64,000 nt of DNA from a methanotrophic endosymbiont of Bathymodiolus puteoserpentis (Logatchev). GTDB taxonomy: Bacteria > Pseudomonadota > Gammaproteobacteria > Methylococcales > Methylomonadaceae. Below the pieces are notes generated by a model. That model was not told the origin of the DNA. It was given only the letters and a program-made list of their open reading frames with translations, and made no database searches. The position numbers were made by a program, and so were the translations under genes. The stretch is from the NCBI RefSeq assembly GCF_900128525.1, contig NZ_FQTQ01000063.1, positions 1-64,000 on the forward strand. The letters run 5' to 3'. The stretch's first letter is position 1; each line of letters opens with the position of its first letter. Shown one piece after another: positions 41,496 to 56,095 of the stretch.

Positions 41496-41532
41496 CTTGA
41501 CATCCACTTATCATTATAAGGAACAAATTGTT

Positions 41533-42444
41533 GTGCGTTATTTATTTCTCCTACTATTTGTTATCACAAGCAATGCTGCCATAGCAGCATTTAGCATAAA
41601 GCAAGTTGCCCAAGGCATCTATGTTCACCAAGGGCCGATAGAATTACCTGATGTACGTAATCATGATGCCATTGCTAATATAGGTTTTATAGTGGGTAAA
41701 AAGTGTGTTGCGGTCATTGATAGTGGTGGTAATCCAGCGCAAGGGCGTTTGTTAAAATCGACTATTCAGAAAATAACAGCCACCCCTATTTGTTATGTAA
41801 TTAATACTCATGTACATCCTGATCATATTTTTGGAAATAGTGCCTTTCAAGATATTGCTAATATAAAGTTCATTGGTCATGAAAAACTCAGTAGAGCGAT
41901 GGCGGCAAGAGGGGCATTTTATATTGCACGTTCTATGGAACAAATAGCGGTTAATTTGACTGAAAAAGACATTATTCCACCGAGTATTTTGGTTAAAGAT
42001 TTTTTAAAACTTGATTTAGGTGGGCGGGTACTAGAATTAAAAGCCTATCCTACAGCACATACTGATAATGATTTAACGGTGTTTGATAAAAAAACCAACA
42101 CCTTATGGATGTCTGATCTGTTATTTGTCGGGCACTTACCTGTATTAGATGGCAGTTTAAAAGGCTGGTTAAACGTGATTGCTGAATTAGAAAAGCAGTC
42201 TTTTGATGTCGTTATCCCAGGGCATGGACCTATTGATCGTGATTGGCCGAAAAGTGTACAAGCAGAAAAACACTACTTACAAAAATTAGCGACCAATGTG
42301 AGAGCTAAAATCAAGCAAGGCAAATATTTAGAAGATGTTTTGCAAGATGATGATTCGATATTTAAAGCTCAGTGGCAATTATTTAATGAATTCCATAAAA
42401 AGAATTTAAGTAGTGCGTTTGCTGAATTAGAATGGGAAGATTAG
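41533..42444 (+). CDS. Exported metallo-beta-lactamase-fold hydrolase (quinoprotein-associated type)
   Basis: A 303-residue protein with a signal peptide (YLFLLLFVITSNAAIA) and an MBL fold. The zinc motif is NTHVHPDHIFGN near residue 95, with later ligands in AHTDNDLTVF and VIPGHGPIDRD. It matches the SoxH-like group that accompanies PQQ dehydrogenases and SoxYZ-like carriers. The start is GTG 41533 (AAGGA upstream, good signal peptide) rather than TTG 41497. The SoxYZ-like gene follows. Confidence 0.82.
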   Translation: MRYLFLLLFVITSNAAIAAFSIKQVAQGIYVHQGPIELPDVRNHDAIANIGFIVGKKCVAVIDSGGNPAQGRLLKSTIQKITATPICYVINTHVHPDHIFGNSAFQDIANIKFIGHEKLSRAMAARGAFYIARSMEQIAVNLTEKDIIPPSILVKDFLKLDLGGRVLELKAYPTAHTDNDLTVFDKKTNTLWMSDLLFVGHLPVLDGSLKGWLNVIAELEKQSFDVVIPGHGPIDRDWPKSVQAEKHYLQKLATNVRAKIKQGKYLEDVLQDDDSIFKAQWQLFNEFHKKNLSSAFAELEWED

Positions 42445-42455
42445 CATTTTAGATT

Positions 42456-42473
42456 AACGGCGCAAGCGCCGTT
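42456..42473. other. Short perfect hairpin between the MBL and SoxYZ-like genes
   Basis: AACGGCG/CGCCGTT with loop CAAG, in the gap after the metallohydrolase stop. It could attenuate transcription or stabilise the upstream message. Only two T-rich bases follow. Confidence 0.5.
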
Positions 42474-42503
42474 TATTGTTATATCAGGAAATAGGAACCT
42501 TTT

Positions 42504-43334
42504 ATGAAATTACGAAAATTACTCTGCCTAGTTTTAGTATTTTTACTACCGGCTATGGCATATGCTGCAAAAGATGAAAATCTTTGGAATCAAGTTTTGA
42601 AGCAGCAATTCTTTGCTGGGAAACAGCTATTAAAAGGTGATGATATTATTCAGCTAAGCACGCCAGTACGTGCCGAAGATCCTGCTTTAGTTCCGATAAA
42701 AGTAACAGCGAGCTTCTTACAGACTAAAGAAAAGTATATTAAGCGTATTTTATTAGTGATTGATAAAAATCCATTTCCTTTTGTCGGTGAGTTTGAATTT
42801 ACCCCCGATAGCGGCAAGGCGGATATTGCTATGCGAGTTCGAGTGAATACGTACAGCTATATACGTGCGATTGCTGAAATGAATACCGGCGAACATTATA
42901 TGGTTAAAAAGTTTGTTAAAGCGAGTGGAGGCTGTTCCGCGCCGATTGGTGCAGATTATGATGCGGCTATGGCACGTTTAGGGAAAATGAAATTTAGACT
43001 TGATAAAAAAATCCAAGATGGCAAGCCAACTATGGCGCAATTACTCATTAGCCATCCTAATATTACTGGTATGCAAATGGATCAGGTGACACGATTTAAG
43101 CGTCGCGCACATTTTATTAAACAGATAAAAGTCACGTTTAATGAGAAGCCGATTCTAACGGCTAAAACGGATATTGCGATTAGCTCTGACCCTAATTTTC
43201 GGTTTTACTTTGTACCTACAGAGGCAGGGGAATTAAAAGCAGAATTTACCGATACGTCTTGTGAAAGTCCAGTTAGTCGAGATGTTTGTGAACCAGGGAA
43301 GTCTTATACTCAAACATATAGAATTATCCCTTAA
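42504..43334 (+). CDS. SoxYZ-like sulfur carrier fusion, quinoprotein-associated
   Basis: A 276-residue exported protein: signal peptide LLCLVLVFLLPAMAYA, then a SoxY-like domain (about 30-140) with the carrier cysteine in GGCSAP, then a SoxZ-like immunoglobulin domain (RRAHFIKQIKVTFNEKPI, ending TDTSCE). This fused SoxYZ is known to sit beside PQQ-dependent dehydrogenases. Here the dehydrogenase is not in the window. The periplasmic location and the neighbouring metallohydrolase make them a functional pair. The substrate is unknown. Confidence 0.82.
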   Translation: MKLRKLLCLVLVFLLPAMAYAAKDENLWNQVLKQQFFAGKQLLKGDDIIQLSTPVRAEDPALVPIKVTASFLQTKEKYIKRILLVIDKNPFPFVGEFEFTPDSGKADIAMRVRVNTYSYIRAIAEMNTGEHYMVKKFVKASGGCSAPIGADYDAAMARLGKMKFRLDKKIQDGKPTMAQLLISHPNITGMQMDQVTRFKRRAHFIKQIKVTFNEKPILTAKTDIAISSDPNFRFYFVPTEAGELKAEFTDTSCESPVSRDVCEPGKSYTQTYRIIP

Positions 43335-43433: not shown

Positions 43434-43703
43434 TTAACGCTCCACCTTTATTGTTTTATTTTTTAATTCATCATTCTCTAATTGCCAGCTGACTTTGATA
43501 TTAAAACGCTGTTCATTGCCATCTTGGGCGGCACTTAACTTGAGTTTCATCAAACCTTCAGGTTGAAAGATAATCTCATCTTCTTCATCGCTAAATTTTA
43601 GTTTACCTTTACCTAAGCTCTCACTAATAGCGGCGAGAATTTTTTCGATGCTTTTGGCATCTTGTAAGGATTCATGTCGAAAACTTTTCTTTTCTTGTTT
43701 CAT
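43434..43703 (-). CDS. Amphi-Trp domain protein
   Basis: An 89-residue protein. The start (KKSFRHESLQDAKSIEKILAAISESLGKGKLKFSDEEDEIIFQP) and closing KVSWQLEN are typical of the amphi-Trp domain, the A component of GAK-type gene sets. The name comes from a Trp near the end of an amphipathic strand. Function is unknown. It overlaps the metallophosphoesterase gene by four bases and is the last gene of the ten-gene minus-strand cluster. Confidence 0.82.
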   Translation of the reverse strand: MKQEKKSFRHESLQDAKSIEKILAAISESLGKGKLKFSDEEDEIIFQPEGLMKLKLSAAQDGNEQRFNIKVSWQLENDELKNKTIKVER

Positions 43704-45031
43704 GACTGAGTGAGGGGAGGTTGAAAAAGTTTAATATAGGGATAATCGGTACTAATACCTAGTACGCGGCCTTGTGGTTGGAAAATGGTAACGGCAGCTC
43801 CGTGACCTTGCTGTGTACCGATATGCTCTTTCTTGCGTGTATTTCGGTCAACCGAGGCATCACATTCAAAATTGACCATGCCTTTGCGCAGCATAATACG
43901 TTGACCGTAACGTAAGTTTTTATGCCCGTGAACAATGGCATAAATGCCTTTTTCACGTAACATTTTATTGCCTTGTTTGGTCATTGGCATATCAATATCA
44001 CGATATTTGGTACGTATAGTATTGGCTAAAGGGCCATAGTAAAAATCAAAGATTTCATCATGTAGGTGTTTTTTGAATTGCTGGTTTAGGTATTTAACCC
44101 CTTTTTCACAAACCATATGGGCAATATGATCATCTATACCTGCATGGACATATAAAAAAGAGCCTTTATGTAGCGCTAAGCGCATTTTCTTAAAATACCA
44201 GTGAAATTCACCGTCTTTATCTAGAAATAATTCCTGCCATTTGATTGCTGCAGCATAAGCAATACGTAAGTCTAGGTCGGCTTTATGCAGGTCTTGTTCA
44301 AATTCATTGATTTTTTCACGTAAACGTTTAATTTCCTTGTTAATGATTTTTTCTGACAAAATACCTTTTGCAGCTTTAGGGAAAGTATCAAACCAGTCCT
44401 CTGAAGGGTATAAGCGTTTACGACACTCCTGTTCATTAGGCACATGTTTTAGTGCATGTTTACCTTGTAAATATTCCTGCTGAATTTCTTTTAAAAAGGG
44501 AATCGCTTTAGCACCCATACGAATGAAGAAGTGCTCGCTTCTTGGGTCTTTATTTAAATTAACGGCATGTATTCCTAATTTAACGCGAATATCATGATTA
44601 CCTGCAAGAATATGTACTTTGGCACCGCTCTTAATTAATAAACGAATGCAGCGTAGCAGCCTTAAATTACTCGGGCCTTTATCAAAGCAATCACCCCCAA
44701 TAACAAAATGCGCTTTGCGACCTGCAGACGTTAACTTAAATTGCTGGTCATAAGCTCCCGTTTTTTTGATGCCACCAGAGGCAACGAGTGAGGCAATAAA
44801 GGCATCAGTATCGGCATGTAGATCAGAAAAGAAAAAAATTGGGGATTTGGGCCATATCCAAGGATTTTCGTGTAAGGTTTGTTGCAATTGCTCAACGAGT
44901 CCAACGGGGCTACTGAAATCTTTACCGGAAGAATGAATTTTTCCTAATGGCCAGTTTTGCACTTTTTTAGGTAGCAGGGTACGAATCCATTTTTGGCCTT
45001 TATAGATAGGTAATTTAAGTGTATTAAGCAT
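43700..45031 (-). CDS. Metallophosphoesterase
   Basis: A 443-residue calcineurin-like phosphoesterase. Metal motifs are FFSDLHADTDAF (near residue 68), GGDCFDKGPSN (near 112), LAGNHDIRVKLG (near 142), YVHAGIDDH (near 296) and AIVHGHKNLRYG (near 370). An inserted helical region (about 215-275) is unusual in small phosphatases. It probably acts on a phosphate ester or polyphosphate in the cytoplasm. It is spaced five bases from the upstream histidine phosphatase gene. Confidence 0.85.
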   Translation of the reverse strand: MLNTLKLPIYKGQKWIRTLLPKKVQNWPLGKIHSSGKDFSSPVGLVEQLQQTLHENPWIWPKSPIFFFSDLHADTDAFIASLVASGGIKKTGAYDQQFKLTSAGRKAHFVIGGDCFDKGPSNLRLLRCIRLLIKSGAKVHILAGNHDIRVKLGIHAVNLNKDPRSEHFFIRMGAKAIPFLKEIQQEYLQGKHALKHVPNEQECRKRLYPSEDWFDTFPKAAKGILSEKIINKEIKRLREKINEFEQDLHKADLDLRIAYAAAIKWQELFLDKDGEFHWYFKKMRLALHKGSFLYVHAGIDDHIAHMVCEKGVKYLNQQFKKHLHDEIFDFYYGPLANTIRTKYRDIDMPMTKQGNKMLREKGIYAIVHGHKNLRYGQRIMLRKGMVNFECDASVDRNTRKKEHIGTQQGHGAAVTIFQPQGRVLGISTDYPYIKLFQPPLTQS

Positions 45032-45036
45032 AAGTT

Positions 45037-45732
45037 TTAATCCGTAAATTGACTGTGTGCTTTTCTAATTTTCCATGCGCCGGCGATATGCTGCCAGTTA
45101 TTTCCCGCTTGATATTCAATGAAAATAGGCTGGCAATGGAACATACTTAATTGAGCAATTTGCTCATATTGTAATAAGCCTAAATGATAGGCGGCATGAC
45201 GAAAAGCGGCACCATGGCCAACAAATATTTTGATTTGATCCACTTGGCTTTGCTGGTACAGTGCCTGCATTTCTACTGTTAATAAATTAGCCACGCGTTG
45301 ACCTGCATCGAGTAAAGACTCGGCTCCTTGAAACGGTAAGCAAAAATGACTATCAGATTTCCAGCCTTTCGGTAAATTTGCATAGCGGGGGTCTTGTTGG
45401 ACTATATCAGTAATTTGTTGCATTGATAAATTAGCCGCACTACCCACGCCACGTTCTGCTAATTCAGTGTACTCTTGTATGGAGTATATCGAGCCATTTA
45501 AGCCTTGAGTTAAGGTGTTTGCTGTCTGCCAAGCACGTAATAATCTTGATGACGCAATCACAGGGTTAATCTGACACTTAAACTGGGTGCATCGCTCTTC
45601 TATTAAGTCAGCAAGCGTATTAGCTTGGAAAAATCCTTTTTCTGTTAAAGGAAAAGGTTGATGCGCACTGGGTGTATCAGTTAGTTGCTGATAATCACCA
45701 TGCCTAATCAAAGCGGCAATAACTTTTGCCAT
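45037..45732 (-). CDS. Histidine phosphatase family protein
   Basis: A 231-residue phosphoglycerate-mutase-like phosphatase. The catalytic RHG is in ALIRHGDYQQL (residue 9), a second Arg in ASSRLLRAWQTA, and the second catalytic His in IFVGHGAAFRHAAYHLG (near residue 180). Its ATG overlaps the stop of the SixA-Nudix gene, so translation is coupled. It is the second histidine phosphatase in a row. Confidence 0.85.
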   Translation of the reverse strand: MAKVIAALIRHGDYQQLTDTPSAHQPFPLTEKGFFQANTLADLIEERCTQFKCQINPVIASSRLLRAWQTANTLTQGLNGSIYSIQEYTELAERGVGSAANLSMQQITDIVQQDPRYANLPKGWKSDSHFCLPFQGAESLLDAGQRVANLLTVEMQALYQQSQVDQIKIFVGHGAAFRHAAYHLGLLQYEQIAQLSMFHCQPIFIEYQAGNNWQHIAGAWKIRKAHSQFTD

Positions 45733-46706
45733 TATGCTTTCTTGCTGCTTAGGTTCGCGGCTAGTGTTGCAAACATCGTTTGTAGCGACTTTTGTTTAAC
45801 CACTGAGCTTGCTTTTTTTAGAGATAACCATTGCCGTCTGCGATGATTTTCTTGCCACTCATGGTCATCTACCATGTCTGTTACTGCCATTGGGTAAACT
45901 TGTACTGTACAAGTGCCACCCCATTTTTTATGTGGATAGTGACCAATCATGTGCTCACTGATAATACCGCGTACACCTGCCTCTTCCCAGGCTTCAATTG
46001 CCGCTGATGCGGGTGCTGTATAACCTGGTTCAATAATGCCTTTGGGAATGCCCCAATGATGATTGCCGCTAGAGGAAATAATTAAAATTTGTAATTTACC
46101 TTTTTCTATGCGGTAAGGAATCGCGGCTGACTGAGAATAGTAATAAGTGGGCCTTTTACGTTTCTCTAGCCCACTCAAGCCATTAAAAATAAATCTTTTC
46201 GGTAGTGTCGCAGGGCGAGTGATGGATTCGACGGTGGCACAGCCTTTATGTAGTAAGCCCCAATGATCTGGCATGCTTAAAATAGCTAAGGTAGCCGTAG
46301 GTAAAAGCTTTCCATCTTCAGGTCTTTGTAGCTTACCGTTATGCAGGTTCTCGATTAAGTTTTCTAAACTGGGATTATGGCCAATTAATAACACGCGTGC
46401 TGAGGATTCTGGACAATCGTTGAGTACATTCTTCAAATCGGTTAATCCTGCTGCATAAATACGCTCGTCAAAGTGAACGTGTTTAGCCGTTAACCCCATC
46501 GCTTTGGCAAGTTTTTCGGCGGTATTCTTTGCACGTTTTGCGGGGGAACTGATAATAAAATCAGGAATTAGGCCTTGTTGCTGTAACCAAGCGCCCATAC
46601 GCTGGGCATCTCGCTTACCGCGATTTTTAAGCGGCCTCTCAAAGTCACTGGCATCAATATTCCAATCAGATTTACCATGCCGTAATACCAGTAATTGCCT
46701 ACTCAT
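45732..46706 (-). CDS. SixA-like histidine phosphatase fused to a Nudix domain
   Basis: A 324-residue two-domain protein. Residues 1-165 are SixA-like: LRHGKSDWNIDASDFERPL, SSPAKRAKNTAEKLA and LIGHNPSLENL. Residues 180-320 are a Nudix fold (WGIPKGIIEPGYTAPASAA, then IEAWEEAGV). The Nudix box departs from consensus: the first Glu after G-x5 is Tyr and the Arg before the Glu is Ile, but the EExG metal pair remains. Similar fusions act on inositol pyrophosphates or diadenosine polyphosphates in other organisms; the substrate here is inferred, not shown. It overlaps the HprK-related kinase gene by one base. Confidence 0.82.
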   Translation of the reverse strand: MSRQLLVLRHGKSDWNIDASDFERPLKNRGKRDAQRMGAWLQQQGLIPDFIISSPAKRAKNTAEKLAKAMGLTAKHVHFDERIYAAGLTDLKNVLNDCPESSARVLLIGHNPSLENLIENLHNGKLQRPEDGKLLPTATLAILSMPDHWGLLHKGCATVESITRPATLPKRFIFNGLSGLEKRKRPTYYYSQSAAIPYRIEKGKLQILIISSSGNHHWGIPKGIIEPGYTAPASAAIEAWEEAGVRGIISEHMIGHYPHKKWGGTCTVQVYPMAVTDMVDDHEWQENHRRRQWLSLKKASSVVKQKSLQTMFATLAANLSSKKA

Positions 46707-47809
46707 TATTCTGCCTCTATGCTAATGTTTTGCTGGAAATAAGATTGTAGTGCTGCAAAATCAACTTTACCACTGACTTCATAAACTCTGACTTTAGATA
46801 AAATATCCAGGTAATTTTGTTCGTTTAATTTAGCATTTTCAGTTAAGAAATGACCGGCCTTATTTTGATAAAAAGGTCCGGGTGACTTCATAATCGGAGC
46901 TAATAAATCGCGTCGGTTATTGAGGTCAACCTGAGTGACTTGGCAAGTTTGTTTGCTGTTATGTTGCCAGTTTAATACGATAAAGGCTTGTAAAGGCTTG
47001 GCAGTCGCAATGCGATCTTTGCCGTAAATACTGACAATATCAACATCGTATTTTTGCTCTAAATCCCAAAGTTGTTGCTGCGGTAATTTAAGTAATTGTT
47101 CACGGCTCTTTTCAGGTATTAATCCTTGTAGGCGTGGGTTGGTTACAATAGTGCCAGGATTAATGCGAGGTAATTTGGCAATACCTTCGGCTTCTACGCC
47201 ATTTTCATCGCGAATAAATAAACGGTCATTGCTTAAGAAATTGATGTTTTCATTATCCATTAAGCGCAGCATAAAAGTAGATTTTCCGCCGCCTGAAAAA
47301 GCAGCAATAGCGTAGGCCTTATTGTTATACACAACCCCAGCAGCATGACAAATCAACCAATGATGTTGTTGCAACCAATTCATGTGCTGGTTATTAATAA
47401 AATTAATCACTTGATTTGTGTTTTCTAGGCAAGGGCCAGCTGCAATTCTCTGAGTTTCACTTTGTAAAAATACCATGCCGGTACGAAATTTACGAATGAG
47501 TCGACCCCCTTCAATATTGTAAAAAACATCTTTTCTACCTTTTTTTCCCGCTTCTCTTGGCCAATTTTGAAAGGGGTATTTTAAGTTTGGCTCAGGGCAA
47601 TCAATCGTGATAACGGTCATATCTACTGCGGTAGGAGCAATAGTAATATGTCGAAAATAGTGAGCGAGTTCGTCAAGCAGGGGCGAAGAATTGCTTTGTA
47701 ATTGAATAACAGACTTCCCGCATTGGAGATATAATGTGCGCTCCAATAGAGTATAGTTTTGTATTAATTCAGCACTTACAGTTTGTAATGAGGTGTTCGA
47801 TGTAATCAC
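46706..47809 (-). CDS. HprK-related kinase B (GAK system)
   Basis: A 367-residue protein with a P-loop like HPr kinase: AIAAFSGGGKSTFMLRL near residue 170, followed by INFLSNDRLFIRD (Walker B-like). It lacks an HPr partner nearby. The neighbouring ATP-grasp and amphi-Trp genes identify it as the kinase member of the GAK set (ATP-grasp, amphi-Trp, kinase). The phosphorylated target is unknown. Start GTG 47809; a REP-like hairpin lies in the 136-base leader. Confidence 0.82.
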   Translation of the reverse strand: MITSNTSLQTVSAELIQNYTLLERTLYLQCGKSVIQLQSNSSPLLDELAHYFRHITIAPTAVDMTVITIDCPEPNLKYPFQNWPREAGKKGRKDVFYNIEGGRLIRKFRTGMVFLQSETQRIAAGPCLENTNQVINFINNQHMNWLQQHHWLICHAAGVVYNNKAYAIAAFSGGGKSTFMLRLMDNENINFLSNDRLFIRDENGVEAEGIAKLPRINPGTIVTNPRLQGLIPEKSREQLLKLPQQQLWDLEQKYDVDIVSIYGKDRIATAKPLQAFIVLNWQHNSKQTCQVTQVDLNNRRDLLAPIMKSPGPFYQNKAGHFLTENAKLNEQNYLDILSKVRVYEVSGKVDFAALQSYFQQNISIEAE

Positions 47810-47910
47810 GTATTTATTGGTTTTGTTAAGTAATCGTGCAAAATTATGTGCACAAAAAGTAGATTCGAATTTACAAACCCTGTGAGATTTTAATGCGCTT
47901 TTTTAGCAAT

Positions 47911-47932
47911 GGCGGACTAAAGTCCGCCCTAC
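47911..47932 (-). repeat. REP-like hairpin with GTAG head
   Basis: Read on the minus strand it begins GTAG then GGCGGACT, two bases, and AGTCCGCC: a perfect 8-bp palindrome. This is the classical REP layout. It lies between the ATP-grasp and kinase genes of the GAK cluster, where it may shape mRNA decay or polarity. Confidence 0.6.
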
Positions 47933-47945
47933 CGTTTTTAGGTAT

Positions 47946-48893
47946 CTATGCATTCATTAGTCTGTTTTGGGCTAGTATTGTTGGTTCTACTAACGTCGGC
48001 TTAGGGCTCTTTAATGCTGTTAGGACATGCTCGACATAAAGTGTAGCAACATCTAGGTTTAAACCTTCTTTTCCACCGCGAAAGCCACCAAAAGCAGAGA
48101 CTTCAAAAACAATGGCAGAGTTTTCCGTTTCAGCGACATCTACGGTGGTGTAAGTCATGCCAAATAAATTTTGCGCTTTGGTCGCCATGGCAATAATTTC
48201 ATCTGATGGCTCGGCTGCTGCATAGCTGCCGCCACTATTAATCGTAGTATTCCATGCATCTTTTTTACCGACTCGAGCATAAGCACCTAAATAGCGCCCG
48301 CCGAGAAACATTAAGCCCATATCACGGCCACCTAAAGCAACTTTTTGCTGGATATACATCATTTTGTTATCCGTTTTAAAGGCTTCGACTGCTTTGCGTA
48401 TTTTTGCTTTGCCATCTTTTTTACTAATGACGCACATGCCGCGAGCTTTAGTTGAATAGAGCGGTTTGAAAATAGCTTCACCGTATAATTCAACGGTTTC
48501 AATGGCAGTTGTGATATCTTCGGTAATCATGGTTTTAGGCATGGGAATATTTGCATTACGCAAAGTGACTGTACAGCTTAGGCGGTTAATTAAGCGTAAT
48601 ATTCTTCCCGGGTTGCTACAAACTTTAACGCCTGAATTTTCTGCAATACGTAATAACTCTAAGCGATCTAAACTATTGGGTGAATAATGATGGCCTATTT
48701 TTTTAATAATAATGGCGTCTAAATCGCACAAATTATGCTGTTGATAATTAAGTGAATTAGTTGCTAAGTCTAAAGAAACATCATCCATATCAATGACTAA
48801 ACGAAACCCTGTTTTTGTCTCAATTGCATCGGCTAGTGTTTCAGTGGACCACTTTCCGGGCAAGCCGACAACGCCTATTCTTAATTTATCCAA
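47946..48893 (-). CDS. GAK system ATP-grasp enzyme
   Basis: A 315-residue ATP-grasp fold protein. Seen motifs are GEAIFKPLYSTKARGM (ATP-lysine strand), MYIQQKVALGGRDMGLMFLGG and TYTTVDVAETENSAIVFEVSAFGGF (metal-binding strand). It belongs with RimK-type ligases that join carboxylates to amines. The start is TTG 48893 (MDKLRIGVVGLPGKWS), because AAGGAGA sits six bases upstream; a GTG at 48917 would lack one. It overlaps the PhoU-APH gene by eight bases. The substrate is unknown. Confidence 0.85.
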   Translation of the reverse strand: MDKLRIGVVGLPGKWSTETLADAIETKTGFRLVIDMDDVSLDLATNSLNYQQHNLCDLDAIIIKKIGHHYSPNSLDRLELLRIAENSGVKVCSNPGRILRLINRLSCTVTLRNANIPMPKTMITEDITTAIETVELYGEAIFKPLYSTKARGMCVISKKDGKAKIRKAVEAFKTDNKMMYIQQKVALGGRDMGLMFLGGRYLGAYARVGKKDAWNTTINSGGSYAAAEPSDEIIAMATKAQNLFGMTYTTVDVAETENSAIVFEVSAFGGFRGGKEGLNLDVATLYVEHVLTALKSPKPTLVEPTILAQNRLMNA

Positions 48894-50526
48894 TAAAAAT
48901 CTCCTTAATGGGGGCACGGTAAGCCTCTCTATGTTTGGTATTCAAGTTGAGTACCTGTTCTAGTAATAGTCGGGAACGGTAAAACATGGCTTTAGCCAAA
49001 GTTTTATCCAAGGTGAAACGAGTGGAGCTGGCTAAAGAACGTGCTAGGCCTAAAGCTAGCCGAAGTTCAAAAGTATCATCTTTATGTTGTCGTGCAAATT
49101 CGGCAGCAAATTGATAGATTGCTAGGTTAACTTGTAAGACGCGCTCTTTATGCGTTTGATTAAGTGCTTTTAAGCGATAATTCGAGACCATAAAGACGGA
49201 AATATCTTGGACATAATCCATAAAACAAGAGCGGTGTAAGTCGATAAAGTTAATTTTATTATATTGTGGGTCATAAATAATATTATCAGTATTAAAATCA
49301 CCATGTATATAGACAGAAAAAGGAGCAGCAAGTGTTTTCTCTAGTTTATGTGCTTGTTGCAATAATTCAGAAAATGAAGGAATACTGATGCCTGCAATGT
49401 ACGTATGTTGTTGCTGAAAGCTGGGGTGAATCGCATAAACATCCGATATACGTTTTTGTAATTGCTCTATATATTGTGCATTGACAGGGCTTTTTCGTTG
49501 AGTCTTTTGCCAAATATCAGAGAGTGTAAGGCAGAGCTGTTTTAGTGATGTCTTTTGTAATTTGTCAGAGCCTTGTAATAATATATTTTCAAAAGTACTC
49601 CCCGCTAAATGTTCAATTAATAAGGCAGCAGACTGCCCTTTTTTTTGATAAGACAGTATTGCAGGCGCAATGCCAGGGTATATCTTATGCCAGCGTTCCA
49701 CGCATTGATATTCTTCTTTAAGTTTTTGTTTTTTGCCTTCTTTAAAGATAGCAATAATATCTTCTTTATTAGCTTCACTAACCCCTGATATAGCACTGCC
49801 TGAGCGAGTTTCAGCTAGGGTATCCAAGACTAGGTTTTTGCTGGCACCCTTTTTATGTAAATGATCTACACAGCGGGATAATGAGTCATAGCGGTCTACG
49901 CTAATCGTTTGGCCTAAGTTGTTCGATAATGTCGCATCGCAAATTTTCAGTAGGGCATCGCCCATAGATTTAATACTTTTTAGGACAAATAGAGCGGCAA
50001 TAAGCTCATCAGTATGTTTTTTTGTTTTAAGTGCTTTACTATATTTATTAATGAGTTGCTCACAATGATGACTTAATTTTTGTTGAATTTCTGCTATTTT
50101 AAGTGCTTGTTGTGTGTCACGATCTTGATTGGCGCGTGCAATGAGGCTAATACCTAAAGCAACACGATCAAGTAGTTGCTCATATTCATCACCAAAGTCA
50201 TAATCGTTATTCTGAAATCCAGTAATGTGGTGTGTGCAGTCTAAACATAACTCAGCAATGCGCTCTAAGTTATTGGCGATATTATTAATCGAGCGGAAGG
50301 TAACAGCATTGCTTTCATTATCACCGGCTTTAAGGCGTTCTTGGTAGCTGTCATTATGTAAACGTATTTTTAGGTTATGAATATAGCCGATGCGATCAAA
50401 ACTAGTGCTAATAGTACTGGTTTCCGTATTGGCAATATAATTTTGCAAATTGGCTATTTGTGTACCGACCTCAACAATAAGAAAACATAGGTTGCTACGC
50501 TGATTTTTTTGTAGTTGAGTGGACAA
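48886..50526 (-). CDS. PhoU-like/APH-kinase fusion protein
   Basis: A 546-residue two-part protein. Residues 1-225 are helical and PhoU-like: AVTFRSINNIANNLERIAELCLD resembles the conserved PhoU helix with its metal-cluster acidic positions. Residues 255-520 are an aminoglycoside-phosphotransferase-like kinase, with the catalytic loop VYIHGDFNTDNIIYD near residue 400 and the metal motif INFIDLHRS. Such a pairing of a phosphate-signalling domain with a small-molecule kinase is unusual. It sits next to the ATP-grasp gene and below a membrane protein gene. Confidence 0.78.
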   Translation of the reverse strand: MSTQLQKNQRSNLCFLIVEVGTQIANLQNYIANTETSTISTSFDRIGYIHNLKIRLHNDSYQERLKAGDNESNAVTFRSINNIANNLERIAELCLDCTHHITGFQNNDYDFGDEYEQLLDRVALGISLIARANQDRDTQQALKIAEIQQKLSHHCEQLINKYSKALKTKKHTDELIAALFVLKSIKSMGDALLKICDATLSNNLGQTISVDRYDSLSRCVDHLHKKGASKNLVLDTLAETRSGSAISGVSEANKEDIIAIFKEGKKQKLKEEYQCVERWHKIYPGIAPAILSYQKKGQSAALLIEHLAGSTFENILLQGSDKLQKTSLKQLCLTLSDIWQKTQRKSPVNAQYIEQLQKRISDVYAIHPSFQQQHTYIAGISIPSFSELLQQAHKLEKTLAAPFSVYIHGDFNTDNIIYDPQYNKINFIDLHRSCFMDYVQDISVFMVSNYRLKALNQTHKERVLQVNLAIYQFAAEFARQHKDDTFELRLALGLARSLASSTRFTLDKTLAKAMFYRSRLLLEQVLNLNTKHREAYRAPIKEIFIG

Positions 50527-50611
50527 TTGGTTTTTCCTAGGTATAGTTTTTGTGATATTTCGGTTGGTTTAAATAATCGCCCAGGGGCAATCGTAACAGA
50601 GGGTATCGGTG

Positions 50612-51223
50612 TTATTGAGACGTTGTATAATTAAATTTAACTATTGCTTGGTTTGCATTGGATAATATGCGTGAGTTAAGTTGATCTGGGTCAATATGAT
50701 TTTCACGATCATTCTGGCCGATTAAGTCTTCACGTATATGTATAGTAAGACGAGCCAGTGCACGAGAAATAATATCTGACTCTATTGAATTCAATGTCAT
50801 GTCTGATACCGTTGAGGAAATCTCTGATACGAAACGGCCATATTCCTCCAGAACCGAAGGAGAAGCTGCAATCGCAAGACGGTGACTAAAAAACTCTAGG
50901 TGTAATAAATCCATCTGGCTTAATTCAGCCTTGCCTAGGACTTTCTCAATGTCATCGATAATAGAGAGATAAAGCTGCGATTTCAACTCCATATAGCGTA
51001 CACTTTGTTCCTTTTTAAGCTCGACTTCAGTTTGTTTGTTAAGCAGTAAGGCGGTGATCAGTACCGTCATTAACGTCCCCATGACGATTAATACAACTTC
51101 CTGCGCGAAAGGCATTTCATCTGTAATTTTATATTCGTAACGTAATAACAGATAACCACCAATAATAATGATGGCGGTTAATAACAACAATACAATCTTA
51201 TAAATAGTATGACTCAATTTCAT
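50612..51223 (-). CDS. Two-helix membrane protein
   Basis: A 203-residue protein with two N-terminal membrane segments (about residues 8-28 and 40-62) and a cytoplasmic helical domain of about 135 residues. No family is recognised. The cytoplasmic part is acidic, with the pattern LYLSIIDDIEKVLGKAELSQMDLL. It might anchor the ParA or CHAD proteins at the membrane (inference from position). It is separated from ParA by about 190 bases. Confidence 0.6.
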   Translation of the reverse strand: MKLSHTIYKIVLLLLTAIIIIGGYLLLRYEYKITDEMPFAQEVVLIVMGTLMTVLITALLLNKQTEVELKKEQSVRYMELKSQLYLSIIDDIEKVLGKAELSQMDLLHLEFFSHRLAIAASPSVLEEYGRFVSEISSTVSDMTLNSIESDIISRALARLTIHIREDLIGQNDRENHIDPDQLNSRILSNANQAIVKFNYTTSQ

Positions 51224-51411
51224 TATGATTAATTTTATTTGGGTTATGCACTTATGATTTGAATTCAGGTGAAGGTAATAGGTAACTTAAATTCTTAATA
51301 GCAGATTATATGAAAATCTGTACCAAGCAATAAACCAATGAAATAGGAAGAACTATAAAATTATTTATTGTCAAGACCGTTTTTTGTGTAAATAAAGTGA
51401 AATTTCTATTT

Positions 51412-52155
51412 TCAATTGATCGTCGCCAAAATTTCTTGCCATAAAGCCTGGTAAGCTTCTGTAGATCGACTTTTATTGGTGTAGCCACCTAAAGGCATGC
51501 GTTCCAAGCCCATACGCTCAATATCACTCGCATAAGGGATGGCTGTTTGTAGTATATCAGGGTGCTTTTCTGACAATGTTTCCATAATTTCTCTATGCAT
51601 TTTTTTGCGACGATCAGCCATAGAGAAAAAGGGGATAAGCTTTAAGTCTTTCAGCTTATTTTCTTTTATAAATGTTTTTAGTTGCTCTAAAGTGCGTAGT
51701 GATAAAGTTGTCGGAATAATCGGTGATAACAAAATATCTGATGTTTCAAAAATAGCTTCCGATAAAAGGGAAATATTAGGTGGGCAATCAAGAAAAATAA
51801 AATCGTAAGAATCGCTGAGCGGTTGTAGTAATTTCTTAAGTCGCTGAGTAGGTTTTTTACGTGTATCAAGAACTAAATCTAAATTTCTAAATGAAAAATC
51901 TGCAGGTAGTAAATCAAGGTTTTCAAAATCAGTGGCCTTAATTAGTCCATCTAATTCACGTTCGCCTGCAATAAGCTCTTTGCTGCCACCTTTTATTTTA
52001 GGTTTTACTCTAAAATAATAACTACTGGCACCTTGTGGGTCTAAATCCCAAACTAAAGTTCGATAGCCACTTTGCGCGGCAAGATAAGCTAAGTTGACTG
52101 CGGTGGAAGTTTTGCCTACACCGCCTTTGATACTGTATGCTGCAATGACTTTCAT
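51412..52155 (-). CDS. ParA-family ATPase
   Basis: A 247-residue ParA/MinD-like ATPase. The deviant Walker A is YSIKGGVGKTSTAVNLA at residue 8, switch I is DLDPQGASSYYF and Walker B is FIFLDCPPN. No ParB or parS-like repeat is near, so it is not a plasmid-type partition pair. Orphan ParA proteins often place cellular cargo such as carboxysomes or chemoreceptor arrays. Its start overlaps the CHAD gene stop by four bases, so it probably positions CHAD-bound material (inference). Confidence 0.85.
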   Translation of the reverse strand: MKVIAAYSIKGGVGKTSTAVNLAYLAAQSGYRTLVWDLDPQGASSYYFRVKPKIKGGSKELIAGERELDGLIKATDFENLDLLPADFSFRNLDLVLDTRKKPTQRLKKLLQPLSDSYDFIFLDCPPNISLLSEAIFETSDILLSPIIPTTLSLRTLEQLKTFIKENKLKDLKLIPFFSMADRRKKMHREIMETLSEKHPDILQTAIPYASDIERMGLERMPLGGYTNKSRSTEAYQALWQEILATIN

Positions 52156-53699
52156 GATTTTTTTACCTCAATTTGAGGTGCGAATAAAGATTTAAAGACA
52201 ATTCTATTTTCTTCCTGCTTAAAAAGTTTATATTGCTTGGCAAAGTCATGACGCGCTGCATTACGCATGCTATCTAAATATTGAACTAAAACACCCATAG
52301 CTAAAAAGGTATTAGATTCAACTTTATTGGCCATCATTTCTGCGCTAAATTTCTTTAAGCTATTTTCTTGTACTTCATAATCCTGGAAATCGCCCAATAC
52401 TGATTGAAAGCCTTTTAAGGCTTTAATAAGTGCTTTAATTTCATCGGCCGGGTAAAGGCTTTGGAAAAATTCCATTAAATAACGTAGCTTTTTACACGTT
52501 TTTCTTAAGTCATGCAATGATTCTGCTGGAGAATCTTCAGTGATTTCATTTGCCTCTTTAATTAGACGTTTATACACTTTCCAAATACGTTGGTCAGCTA
52601 ACTCTTTGATCGTTAGGTTTGCTGCATTGCTACAACCTTTTTCAGGTAAAGGCTCTTTTAAGAACTGTTCCCATGCAAGCAGTTGTTTAATGTAATTTGG
52701 ATTTTTTAAGTGAGTGGCTAATTCAGTTTGTGCTTGTTTTTGCTTTTGTTTCAGAAAAGTATAGAGCGGGGTTATATCCTCTTGTAAAGATTTGGGTAAG
52801 GCAGCTTTATATTGTTGATAGTTAAGCAGGTAAACATCTAAATCGCGTGTGGCGCTGGTGATTTGTCCAAGCCAAGCAAAAAAACTAGCGTACTGGGTGA
52901 CTATTGAATCAGGAAATACATTTTTAATTTGGCTTAAGCCAGCACGCGTACGTCTGATAGCAACACGATAATCATGTAAAAATTCGGTATCAATATCAGC
53001 GATAGTGCCCGCTTCATTGATTTTTATAGATTTAAGTAAAGCACGATAAATAACTTTGCTGGCTCGGTCTGCACGTAGCTCTGGATCAAGTTTTATCACT
53101 AATTTAGAGCTATAGTCTTGTGCTTTTCGCCCTTGTAGTTTTAATGCGCTGTTTAATATGGAGCTTTGTGTCGGTACTAATGCTAGAGATTTTTCTAATA
53201 GTTGGCTGACTCGAGCCACAGCTTTTTCATAACCTTTTAACGGTTGTAAGCTAATGCGACTGCCTAGATTTTCATAGGCTTCAAGCTTAATACGTACTGT
53301 GGTTTTTTGATCTTTATTTAAAACATTTATATGGAAGATCTGATACGGTAATTGACAGAGTGGTAATAAAGCACGCATTTCTAATATTGGGTCTAGCTGG
53401 GTTTTTAATCGTCCATCTTGGAATTGATTACTAAAGCTAGGGACTTCTTGTTGATTTTCTAAGGCAAGACATTTGCCAGTATTTCTGTCTATTAAGCTAA
53501 TATGTGATGCTGATTTAGACTGGTTTAATTCACAAAGTATACCCGCACTATAAAGACGCCAGTCAAAGCTATCGTAAAAGGTTTTGGTTGCGTATTGTTC
53601 TGAGGCTATTTGAAAGTCAATCTTTTTACCTAACTTACTTAAAAATTTTTCCGCTGCCATATGTTCAGGCAACTCAAAGTGTAGAGGTAGTGCTGTCAT
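52152..53699 (-). CDS. CYTH-like/CHAD domain protein
   Basis: A 515-residue protein. Residues 1-190 resemble a CYTH (triphosphate tunnel) domain: YYDSFDWRLYSAGILCEL-like strand, but the ExExK motif is missing, so it may be inactive. Residues 205-500 are a CHAD domain with its histidine/arginine-rich helices: FLHDYRVAIRRTRAGLSQI and LHDLRKTCKKLRYLMEFF. CHAD domains bind polyphosphate and target granules in characterised cases. It is the first gene of the ten-gene minus-strand cluster. Confidence 0.85.
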   Translation of the reverse strand: MTALPLHFELPEHMAAEKFLSKLGKKIDFQIASEQYATKTFYDSFDWRLYSAGILCELNQSKSASHISLIDRNTGKCLALENQQEVPSFSNQFQDGRLKTQLDPILEMRALLPLCQLPYQIFHINVLNKDQKTTVRIKLEAYENLGSRISLQPLKGYEKAVARVSQLLEKSLALVPTQSSILNSALKLQGRKAQDYSSKLVIKLDPELRADRASKVIYRALLKSIKINEAGTIADIDTEFLHDYRVAIRRTRAGLSQIKNVFPDSIVTQYASFFAWLGQITSATRDLDVYLLNYQQYKAALPKSLQEDITPLYTFLKQKQKQAQTELATHLKNPNYIKQLLAWEQFLKEPLPEKGCSNAANLTIKELADQRIWKVYKRLIKEANEITEDSPAESLHDLRKTCKKLRYLMEFFQSLYPADEIKALIKALKGFQSVLGDFQDYEVQENSLKKFSAEMMANKVESNTFLAMGVLVQYLDSMRNAARHDFAKQYKLFKQEENRIVFKSLFAPQIEVKKS

Positions 53700-53959: not shown

Positions 53960-54187
53960 TTAGGCTTTTTCGCTAAAGGAAGCTTTGCGCCTATCTGAGG
54001 ATACGCGGCGGTTGACGATCTGTTTCATACGTTTTGATGAGGTACGGCGTGTAGGTCGTTTTCGCCTTTCTGTTTTGACTTCCGGCGGTTGCTCTTCTTC
54101 ATCAATAATAGTGGCATAGCGTATTACTTTTTTGGGCTTAGTGATGGGGTTGACTGCGGGGACATGAATATAGGGGATTTTAATCAT
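53960..54187 (-). CDS. Small basic hypothetical protein
   Basis: A 75-residue protein with an Arg/Lys-rich C-terminal half (KTERRKRPTRRTSSKRMKQIVNRR) and an acidic middle (IIDEEEQPPE). I choose ATG 54187 (MIKIPYIHVPAVNP), as an AAGG lies nine bases upstream; an earlier in-frame ATG at 54217 has none. It may bind nucleic acid or an anion such as polyphosphate (inference from charge). It sits just upstream of the CHAD cluster. Confidence 0.55.
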   Translation of the reverse strand: MIKIPYIHVPAVNPITKPKKVIRYATIIDEEEQPPEVKTERRKRPTRRTSSKRMKQIVNRRVSSDRRKASFSEKA

Positions 54188-54496
54188 AGCTTTAAACCTT
54201 ATTATGTATATAAACAAGTTATCGGCATGGAAGGAAAAAAATTAATACTAAAATAGTAAGTTATTGAGTAAAAATAGAAAGAGCTTTACAAAATAATATA
54301 AGTATATTATAAAAGACTTAATCTTTTTGCCCCCAAGCGCTAGTTAAAAACTATACACTTTTAGGACAAGGTTTTAGTATTCAAAAAGCATTTCGGAGCG
54401 ATATATTGCATTATTTTATAATGACTTTTAGTCGTTATGAAAATAACCTATGGGTTTTTAGTCCATAGTTTTGAGTTACCTTACTAGGAGACTACT

Positions 54497-56095
54497 ATGA
54501 AGAATAACGTAAATATTCAGCGCCGCAAACTTTTAAAGCTTGCAGGTATTAGTGCAGCAGCATTAGCCACATTTCCTAGTCTACTTAATGCTAAAACAAT
54601 GCGAGTGGGACGGCATGCATCTCCTGATTTTAACCCAGATATAGAAATTAAACTGACAGGCAAAGTGAAGTACGTGCCGATTTTTAATGGTCCACAAACT
54701 CGTGTCTGGAAAGTTATAGGTGAAGTTTTAAAAGGGCCTGCAAAGACCATTACCAATGAAAAGAGCTATCTTGCTCCAACGATTCGTTTACATAAAGGTC
54801 AGAAAGTTCGTATCTACTTAAATAATGAATTACCTTCTGCGACAATATTACACTGGCATGGACTACATGTACCTTCTGAAATGGATGGTAATCCTATGTA
54901 TGCTATTGACCATGGTGAGACTTTTGTTTATGAATTTGAAATACTCAATAGAGCGGGAACTTATTGGTATCATGCCCATACCCATAGTTTAACAGCTAAA
55001 CATGTCTATTCAGGGCTTGCAGGTTTTTTTCTTGTCAGTGATAACGAAGAGCAATCGCTTAAATTACCAAGTGGTGAATTTGATGTACCTTTAGTTATTC
55101 AAGATCGTAATTTTGATCAACAAAATCAGCTTAAATATGCTGGCGGCATGATGATGAAGATGCATGGTTTTTTAGGCGATCAGATTTTGGTGAATGGTAC
55201 ACCGGATTTTGAATTACCTGTGGCAACACGTGCTTATCGAATGCGTTTACTAAATGGCTCTAACTCACGCATCTATAAATTAGCTTGGGATGATGGCACA
55301 CCAATAAAAGTTATCGCTACAGATGGTGGTTTATTAGAGCATGTTGAAACGCTTCCTTATTTAACACTAGCTCCTGCGGAGCGACGAGAAATCTGGGTTG
55401 ACTTTAGCCATAAAAAAGTTGGCACGGAATTGACCTTGCGTAGTTTAGAATTTTCTTCTAGTGGCATGGGAGGAGGCATGGGTATGATGGGTGGCGGTCG
55501 TCGTGGCGGCATGATGGGGGGAATGGGTGGCGGCGGAGCACATGCAGGAGAAGATTTTTCTGTACTTAAAGTGCGGGTTAGTAAGAAAGTATCCAGCCAT
55601 GATGTCTTACCGAAACGATTGAGCAAAATAACGCCTTTACGTTTAGCCGATGCTGAAAATCCTCATTCACCACGCCGTATCACTTTATCCATGCGTCATA
55701 TGTCTGCCTTGTTAAATGGTCGCTCTTATAAAATGAATGATATTAGGGCAGATGAAATTTTTCATGTCAATACTTTGCAATTAATGGAGTTTGACAATGG
55801 TTTTCATCACGGCATGGGTGGAATGGGTGGAATGGGAATGCCGCATCCTATGCATTTACATGGAGAACAATTTCAGGTGGTTAAACGGGAAGTTAGAAAT
55901 AAATCCGGTAAAGGGTACGCCTCAATTTCTGCAGGGTTTTTAGATAAAGGCTGGAAAGATACTGTATTAGTTATGCCGGGTGAAAAGGTAACTATCTTAA
56001 AGCCATTTAATGACTTTACTGGACCATTTATGTATCACTGCCATAATTTAGAGCATGAAGATATGGGGATGATGCGTGACTTATTAGTGAAGTAA
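54497..56095 (+). CDS. Tat-exported multicopper oxidase
   Basis: A 532-residue multicopper oxidase. A twin-arginine signal is present (RRKLLKLAGISAAALATFP). Copper-site motifs are HWHGLHVPSEMDGNPM, WYHAHTHS, HPMHLHGEQFQV and YHCHNLEHEDMGMM, giving the type 1 site and the trinuclear cluster. A Met/Gly-rich loop near residues 320-350 and a second one near 440 resemble CueO copper-binding inserts. It probably oxidises Cu(I) or another substrate in the periplasm. The HMA/TauE-SafE gene downstream supports a copper role. Confidence 0.88.
   Translation: MKNNVNIQRRKLLKLAGISAAALATFPSLLNAKTMRVGRHASPDFNPDIEIKLTGKVKYVPIFNGPQTRVWKVIGEVLKGPAKTITNEKSYLAPTIRLHKGQKVRIYLNNELPSATILHWHGLHVPSEMDGNPMYAIDHGETFVYEFEILNRAGTYWYHAHTHSLTAKHVYSGLAGFFLVSDNEEQSLKLPSGEFDVPLVIQDRNFDQQNQLKYAGGMMMKMHGFLGDQILVNGTPDFELPVATRAYRMRLLNGSNSRIYKLAWDDGTPIKVIATDGGLLEHVETLPYLTLAPAERREIWVDFSHKKVGTELTLRSLEFSSSGMGGGMGMMGGGRRGGMMGGMGGGGAHAGEDFSVLKVRVSKKVSSHDVLPKRLSKITPLRLADAENPHSPRRITLSMRHMSALLNGRSYKMNDIRADEIFHVNTLQLMEFDNGFHHGMGGMGGMGMPHPMHLHGEQFQVVKREVRNKSGKGYASISAGFLDKGWKDTVLVMPGEKVTILKPFNDFTGPFMYHCHNLEHEDMGMMRDLLVK

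Follow-up and report, generated by a model that had tools for sequence, protein, structure and literature searches.

Do ten neighbouring genes on one strand work as a single system, and what would such a system do? The question is raised by positions 43434-53699 of a stretch of 64,000 nucleotides (nt) from a methanotrophic endosymbiont of Bathymodiolus puteoserpentis (Methylomonadaceae; assembly GCF_900128525.1, contig NZ_FQTQ01000063.1, positions 1 to 64,000), which we call the window. Ten minus-strand genes lie there, among them members of the GAK system, and a sequence-only reading had taken them as one unit. We find that they are two units plus an inserted gene, and not a single ten-gene system. 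The first unit is the GAK core, made up of the genes for PhoU-APH, ATP-grasp, HprK-B, SixA-Nudix, histidine phosphatase, metallophosphoesterase and amphi-Trp. The second unit is the CHAD-ParA pair, which is separate from the GAK core. We read GAK as a PhoU-gated cassette for phosphorylation and ligation in phosphate homeostasis, coupled in a few lineages to a CHAD-ParA granule module, and give this reading a probability of roughly 0.45.

Two units and an inserted gene

All ten open reading frames (ORFs) of the cluster were located on the minus strand, exactly where the sequence-only reading had placed them. In the direction of transcription they are:

52152..53699, minus strand: CHAD protein, 515 aa; Pfam CHAD 196 bits at residues 219-447, N-terminal domain without assigned function
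51412..52155, minus strand: ParA-family ATPase of the AAA_31/CbiA type, 247 aa; AAA_31 127.9 bits
50612..51223, minus strand: orphan protein, 203 aa, with a hydrophobic N-terminal region as read from the sequence; inserted between the two units
48886..50526, minus strand: PhoU-APH fusion kinase, 546 aa; Pfam APH, weak PhoU match of 24.8 bits (cut-off 23.5)
47946..48917, minus strand: GAK ATP-grasp ligase of the RimK/MptN type, 323 aa; TIGR04356 431.5 bits (cut-off 300), Pfam RimK-like ATP-grasp
46706..47809, minus strand: HprK-related kinase B (HprK-B), 367 aa; TIGR04355 344 bits (cut-off 200)
45732..46706, minus strand: SixA-like histidine phosphatase domain fused to Nudix, 324 aa; Pfam His_Phos_1 and NUDIX
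45037..45732, minus strand: CobC/PGM-like histidine phosphatase, 231 aa; His_Phos_1 62.4 bits
43700..45031, minus strand: calcineurin-like metallophosphoesterase, 443 aa; Metallophos 36.8 bits
43434..43703, minus strand: amphi-Trp protein, 89 aa; TIGR04354 61.3 bits (cut-off 31)

On the CHAD side the gaps measure -4 (CHAD/ParA), 188 (ParA/orphan gene) and 85 nt (orphan gene/PhoU-APH). Within the core they are -32 (PhoU-APH/ATP-grasp), 136 (ATP-grasp/HprK-B), -1 (HprK-B/SixA-Nudix), -1 (SixA-Nudix/histidine phosphatase), 5 (histidine phosphatase/metallophosphoesterase) and -4 nt (metallophosphoesterase/amphi-Trp). Since 136 nt also part ATP-grasp from HprK-B, the gaps cannot by themselves split the cluster, and the division into two units rests on comparison with other genomes. 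A promoter and terminator scan yielded 25 promoter-like sites against a shuffle mean of 35.0 and 17 terminator-like sites against 9.9, and was of no use for delimiting transcripts.

We compared the window with 43 HprK-B loci (L032-L050 and L077-L100; G, L and f numbers are our handles for genomes, loci and families). L033 and L037 repeat L040 and L041, so that 42 distinct loci remain when the window is counted among them. The genomes were sampled, many loci come from draft genomes, and gene calls in the related loci are ORF-based. HprK-B is present at 42/42 by choice of loci, and several absences of other genes are contig ends. PhoU-APH and ATP-grasp were found at 37 loci each, histidine phosphatase and metallophosphoesterase at 36 each, amphi-Trp at 34 and SixA-Nudix at 26; CHAD and ParA occur at 8 each and the orphan gene at 1. 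Thirty-five of the 42 loci keep the core genes that they have in one order, namely PhoU-APH, ATP-grasp, HprK-B, (SixA-Nudix), histidine phosphatase, metallophosphoesterase and amphi-Trp, and the median spacing of the six usual neighbour pairs ranges between -8 and 12 nt when start codons are estimated by script. Five loci are rearranged or reduced (L048, L079, L083, L086 and L088), and in two others, L036 and L082, HprK-B is the only core gene. In L048, from a Nitrospirae metagenome-assembled genome (MAG), and in L088 the core is reduced to amphi-Trp, PhoU-APH, ATP-grasp and HprK-B. Free variation of the neighbours between genomes, on which the sequence-only reading had staked its single unit, was thus found for the three genes upstream and not for the seven-gene core, of which 7/42 loci are rearranged or reduced. 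The single unit did not stand for further reasons: CHAD-ParA is frequent in GAK-negative genomes, CHAD lies at 8/42 GAK loci, and the stretches read around the plasmid-borne cores described below contain neither CHAD nor ParA nor PPK1.

The 203-aa orphan protein has no Pfam or NCBIfam match. A homologue was found neither in the 43 GAK loci searched nor, apart from the window itself (L110), in 85 CHAD loci, and we reject this gene as a constant partner for the loci read.

The GAK core is rare yet movable

The assignment to GAK proved correct, as the ATP-grasp, HprK_rel_B and amphi-Trp proteins of the window all exceed the curated cut-offs of the NCBIfam GAK system (TIGR04354-TIGR04357). The window departs from that system in that its genome holds no match to CofD_rel_GAK. 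Furthermore, PhoU-APH, SixA-Nudix, histidine phosphatase and metallophosphoesterase are frequent at the loci studied here and had no GAK model in the NCBIfam scan. The XXXCH-domain protein (TIGR04358), which we take to be another GAK member, was not matched by any of the ten proteins in the NCBIfam scan; no genome search was made for it. We found no publication on the GAK family names in the open-licence PMC literature, and for HprK-related or HprK-like kinases the one match there was a paper on RiPPs.

HprK_rel_B exceeds its cut-off in 8/301 genomes of the order, 12/369 of the class and 14/398 of the phylum, the window's genome included. The cassette is hence rare, yet it is movable. Five Rhodobacterales plasmid records match HprK-B, and the three plasmids that were read (Qingshengfaniella, Pseudooceanicola and Tritonibacter) carry a compact six-gene core without SixA-Nudix in the usual order. 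CofD adjoins the core in two of these three loci, one of which also has a Nudix gene, and neither CHAD nor ParA occurs in the stretches read. Carriage on plasmids suggests that the GAK core spreads as a unit. The records NZ_CP042262.1, NZ_CP060438.1 and NZ_CP015232.1 are large alphaproteobacterial plasmids bearing the core.

The association of the core genes is more than chance, because the gene order recurs and because HprK_rel_B over its cut-off co-occurs with the metallophosphoesterase in 7 genomes of 301 in the order (Fisher p ~1.5e-12, uncorrected for relatedness). The exceptions among the 301 are G253 with HprK_rel_B alone, where the contig ends, and G229 with the metallophosphoesterase alone. 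Strict all-or-none inheritance of the core is rejected by G229, G245, G140 and G184. No HprK-B was seen in G229, where ~200 bp separate the ATP-grasp and SixA-Nudix ORFs. In G245 HprK-B is the sole core gene of its contig, and metallophosphoesterase and amphi-Trp are paired on a second one.

Two further HprK sequences were seen. In G452 a second HprK-B copy (L082, 1724-2863) adjoins CNNM, CHAD and ParA without ATP-grasp or PhoU-APH beside it, and a separate contig (L084) bears another core. The window's own genome (G000) holds a second, distant HprK-like stretch on contig C206:18780-18941 (L002), which scores 27.3 bits, below the cut-off, and is possibly an ordinary phosphotransferase system kinase.

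PhoU-APH and ATP-grasp as a possible chemical kernel

PhoU-APH is as constant a member of the core as ATP-grasp, at 37/42 loci each. Within the order its profile matched 5/201 genomes (G000, G174, G156, G140 and G184). G140 and G184 belong to the same genus, which is different from that of the other matches. Genome searches of these two gave no HprK-B match at E<=0.001 and no metallophosphoesterase match; for the remaining core genes the scope was the 20 kb and 10.3 kb around the PhoU-APH match, where PhoU-APH followed by ATP-grasp were the sole recognised core genes:

L209:8937-11496 and L210:1568-4166: PhoU-APH and ATP-grasp side by side, in two genomes of one genus

Because these loci hold PhoU-APH and ATP-grasp alone, we read the two proteins as a putative chemical kernel of GAK. 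Together with the constancy of PhoU-APH, the two-gene kernel gives a concrete assay target for the system.

Profile searches matched PhoU-APH to PhoU (4q25, E 4.5e-11) and APH (4feu, E 1.9e-6) and placed a PhoU-like helical domain ahead of the APH kinase part. The AlphaFold2 model of the protein has a predicted local distance difference test score (pLDDT) of 88, and its best Foldseek matches are APH(3')-Ia. Residues K262, E272, H408-G409-D410, N415 and D429 are invariant in 30/30 sequences.

CHAD and ParA form a recurrent pair

The CHAD domain aligns with the CtCHAD structures 6qv7/6qva of the PDB at E 5e-36, and by alignment spacing H242, R245, R249, R285, R406 and Y407 correspond to CtCHAD H253, R256, R260, R296, R418 and Y419. 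These six central polyphosphate-contact residues are invariant in 8/8 aligned sequences. According to the available part of the CtCHAD report, mutation of the central-cavity residues H253, R256, R260, R296 and R418/Y419 lowered polyphosphate binding, and further residues had milder effects (PMC6537752). The window protein thus shares domain and central contact residues with the CHAD phosins as described there, and differs from the CtCHAD type in an N-terminal extension of ~200 residues and an adjacent ParA. The extension had been labelled CYTH-like, a label that we withdraw: no CYTH model of NCBIfam or Pfam matched, and among 75 relatives a single one carries an ExExK/R string within its first 80 residues.

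ParA matches the ParA-family profile, and its deviant Walker A motif KGGVGKT is conserved in 8 aligned sequences. The pairing with CHAD noticed in the window recurs: in 49/85 sampled CHAD loci ParA directly adjoins CHAD on the same strand. This sample combined the 30 best-scoring loci of the order with 39 order loci chosen for spread by genus and a further 16 taken from GAK genomes that do not belong to the order. Among the 30 best-scoring order loci ParA adjoins CHAD in 18, and by our grouping 30/49 of the pairs lie in order genomes without GAK:

Window 51412-53699 and loci L110-L155, L163-L165 and L167-L202: CHAD-ParA pairs, candidates for positioning polyphosphate granules

In the order, ParA was paired with CHAD at 9/9 GAK-positive and 30/60 GAK-negative CHAD loci (p ~0.004, relatedness uncorrected), with G229 counted as positive and G140 and G184 as negative. 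As these 69 loci, the 30 best-scoring ones (window included) and the 39 chosen by genus, are biased by locus choice, we set this comparison aside as main evidence.

Neighbouring genes for ParA and CHAD, together with polyphosphate kinase, have been described as a ppk-parA-CHAD group in Acidithiobacillus; in the available portions of these texts GAK does not appear, and ParA is called a plasmid/chromosome partition protein and not a granule-positioning ATPase (PMC10892726, PMC6416229). McdA/McdB positioning of carboxysomes, as outlined in the accessible part of a 2025 review, likewise pairs a ParA-type ATPase with a cargo-binding protein, whereas the cargo here would be polyphosphate; the same part names AlgP as organising polyphosphate granules in P. 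aeruginosa and lists ATP dependence as unknown (PMC13052382). Our search of the open-licence PMC literature found no publication that brings together CHAD, ParA and the polyphosphate granule. The CHAD-ParA pair is a testable candidate for ATP-driven positioning of polyphosphate granules.

Where the two units meet

CHAD-ParA lies near GAK in three families. The first is the window's own, f1, where genus g1 shows it in the window, in L032 and in G229, whose ParA is directly followed by PhoU-APH. In f160 (L080-L082) the pair lies on the opposite strand from GAK. In f232 it stands between metallophosphoesterase and amphi-Trp (L097) or upstream of PhoU-APH (L098). L039, from an unclassified MAG with an HprK-B 87% identical, also has CHAD-ParA near GAK, and in G588 (f50) one contig, separate from that of the core, carries CHAD-ParA together with CNNM, Nudix and CofD_rel_GAK.

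Genes for phosphate transport or PPK1 are found near GAK in f160, f50 and f213. PPK1 lies ~8-14 kb from HprK-B in G562, G657 and G588. G657 carries, beyond amphi-Trp, genes for Nudix, histidine phosphatase, DUF47/PhoU_div, a PHO4 phosphate transporter, Usp and PPK1, and G562 has a histidine phosphatase, an Na/Pi cotransporter with PhoU and PPK1 near GAK. L083 (f50) has PHO4 and DUF47 close to the core, and L094 (f213) an Na/Pi transporter. At the genome level PPK1 was present in 20/22 GAK genomes tested against 7/14 control genomes; the 22 were taken from 33 GAK genomes, which include G690 and G832 with HprK-B below cut-off and some incomplete genomes. The theme of phosphate chemistry, proposed from the window alone, is thus borne out, with PPK1, phosphate transporters and CHAD near GAK in some lineages. 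The meeting of the two units in three families, together with PPK1 and transporters near GAK, lends support to a link with phosphate and polyphosphate.

Transporter genes of the CNNM/CorC type are found repeatedly between CHAD-ParA and components of GAK (L162:3902-5188, L080, L081 and L082), and two more stand beside PPK1 in L156 and L157. The PPK1 of G562 (L160:5842-8108) is split over two overlapping frames in the draft; either the assembly is in error or the gene is broken.

How might such a cassette work? We propose that the PhoU-controlled APH-type kinase would phosphorylate a hydroxyl on a substrate that it shares with the ATP-grasp, and that the RimK/MptN-type ATP-grasp would couple a carboxylate of the same substrate to an amino acid, which is probably glutamate. 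The PhoU domain would let GAK respond to phosphate status. HprK-B and amphi-Trp may add a second, protein-level layer of phosphorylation, and Nudix, histidine phosphatase and metallophosphoesterase could remove or recycle the phosphorylated products. In the coupled lineages CHAD would bind polyphosphate, and cycling of the ParA ATPase would distribute the granules across the nucleoid. In the window's genus the modules follow each other head to tail, which might serve to co-express phosphate state and the handling of granules.

Several observations weigh against this reading. PPK1 is common anyway, as the control genomes demonstrate, and was unmatched in 2/22 GAK genomes. CHAD does not need GAK: its profile was matched at E<=1e-20 in at least 200/301 order genomes, the best matches being full length, against 8/301 for HprK_rel_B, and at the same threshold no CHAD was found in 11/26 GAK genomes. 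A basic, adaptor-like tail was not seen by eye in ParA-linked CHADs among the 75 of 85 CHADs aligned (those <450 bits were left out). PPK1, PHO4, Na/Pi transporter, DUF47 and CHAD were all missing from 32/42 GAK loci and 3/3 plasmid loci in a search with single queries that kept matches >60 bits only, did not seek pst and had no random-locus control. The polyphosphate link of the sequence-only reading hence stands for some lineages, by their neighbours and by the CHAD polyphosphate residues that are kept, and falls short at those 32/42 loci.

It is rather doubtful, though worth weighing, that CHAD-ParA and GAK are adjacent by chance, as separate transcription units with no joint function. CHAD-ParA is common in genomes without GAK, and in the window the units are parted by the orphan gene and by gaps of 188 and 85 nt. 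However, the adjacency recurs in three families in differing arrangements, and PhoU-APH immediately follows ParA in G229. A binomial estimate for 3 of ~15 GAK families, with a span of 20 kb in 3.3 Mb, is ~1e-4 (rough, independence assumed). Chance adjacency concerns the joint placement alone and overlaps the other readings, hence the probabilities of the readings do not sum.

CofD-like and Nudix accessories

A different product is conceivable and, in our view, unlikely: GAK could make a small phosphodiester or phospho-amino-acid compound resembling a cofactor, in the style of the F420 tail, with a CofD-like transferase and the MptN/RimK-like glutamyl ligase as builders, kinases and phosphatases for tuning, and incidental polyphosphate neighbours. 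Accessory genes and the ATP-grasp speak for it. A CofD-like gene stands at 10 GAK loci, in 7 of which it is divergent from the core and upstream of PhoU-APH. Three of 4 such genes scanned exceed the CofD_rel_GAK (TIGR04357) cut-off, and that of L079 falls below (255.3 vs 340). In G588, G647, G791 and G806 CofD_rel_GAK is present but distant from the core, and its retention there supports a functional tie to GAK. A second, stand-alone Nudix gene directly precedes PhoU-APH in 11 loci. After its own family TIGR04356, the ATP-grasp has as next best NCBIfam family MptN (167.7 bits), the tetrahydromethanopterin glutamate ligase. Against this, CofD_rel_GAK has no match in the window's genome, which is 99.99% complete. 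Overall it was matched in 10/33 GAK genomes (8 over cut-off) and unmatched in 23/33, some of them incomplete; we therefore regard it as inconstant and do not treat it as defining GAK. A PhoU domain and an HprK-like kinase are also ill-suited to plain cofactor synthesis.

The CofD-like protein of L079 (10866-12665) has an extra N-terminal region of ~200 residues that looks hydrophobic.

The phosphate-homeostasis reading can also be taken further, to a so far unrecognised phosphate-status system in which the kinase and the MptN-like ligase would make an undescribed phosphorylated amino-acid conjugate, CHAD-ParA would be an ATP-driven granule positioner, and one operon in the window's genus would link phosphate sensing to granule inheritance; this extended form we hold to be quite unlikely. 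GAK gains in interest from being found on plasmids and tied to phosphate and polyphosphate genes in several lineages, and the position of GAK beside CHAD-ParA suggests concrete tests for both units.

Active sites of the remaining core proteins

The HprK-B active site is intact, with H155, G173, G175-K176-S177-T178 (Walker A) and N194-D195-R196 invariant in 29/29 sequences. In the metallophosphoesterase D70, H72, G113-D114, D117, G144-N145-H146-D147, H296 and G369-H370 are invariant in 30/30; these include the metal ligands of the family. In the histidine phosphatase R10-H11-G12, R66, E93 and H173 reach a conservation of 93% or higher across 36 aligned sequences. The SixA half of SixA-Nudix scores 69.3 bits against TIGR00249, below the cut-off of 74.5, and its catalytic H10 is Gln in 5/23 aligned sequences, while Nudix E238/E241/E242 are kept in 23/23; the Nudix half is thus probably the working part.

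The AlphaFold2 model of amphi-Trp (pLDDT 86) shows a helix and four strands, and had no fold match in the PDB at E<=0.001. Its residues F8, H10, S12, L13 and D15 (motif FxHESLxD) are conserved, with exceptions in L048, L099 and L100. A RiPP-like precursor (ribosomally synthesised and post-translationally modified peptide) or an obligatory Ser12 phosphosite found no support, as the C-terminal tail is variable and two loci have Ala in place of S12.

That amphi-Trp is an HPr-like substrate of a protein phospho-switch, phosphorylated by HprK-B at FxHESLxD, tailed by ATP-grasp and reset by the phosphatases, would suit the invariant kinase site, the conserved motif and the presence of amphi-Trp at 34/42 loci (several others being contig ends), but is improbable given Ala for S12 in L099 and L100 and Tyr (L100) or Phe (L048) for H10 beside kinases that keep their active site, the lack of a PDB match for the model at that threshold, and the PhoU-APH and ATP-grasp genes of G140 and G184 without adjacent HprK or amphi-Trp.

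Flanking genes

An anti-phage defence system was considered and rejected, since the PADLOC models left the cassette unmatched except for ParA residues 3-39, which matched one model.

A small ORF upstream of CHAD is a doubtful member of the cluster, with homologues in few loci:

53960..54217, minus strand: small basic ORF, 85 aa

It has no family match in the Pfam and NCBIfam scans. Homologues lie upstream of CHAD in L111 and L112, of the same genus, and ORFs of the same cluster occur in L039 and L047.

Both flanks of the ten genes are occupied by plus-strand genes. At 54497-56095 a multicopper oxidase-like protein with Met/Gly-rich stretches, whose best NCBIfam match is below cut-off, is encoded divergently from the CHAD side. 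At 41497-43334, convergent with the GAK core, are genes for a quinoprotein relay zinc metallohydrolase 2 and a SoxYZ-like carrier, both over their NCBIfam cut-offs.

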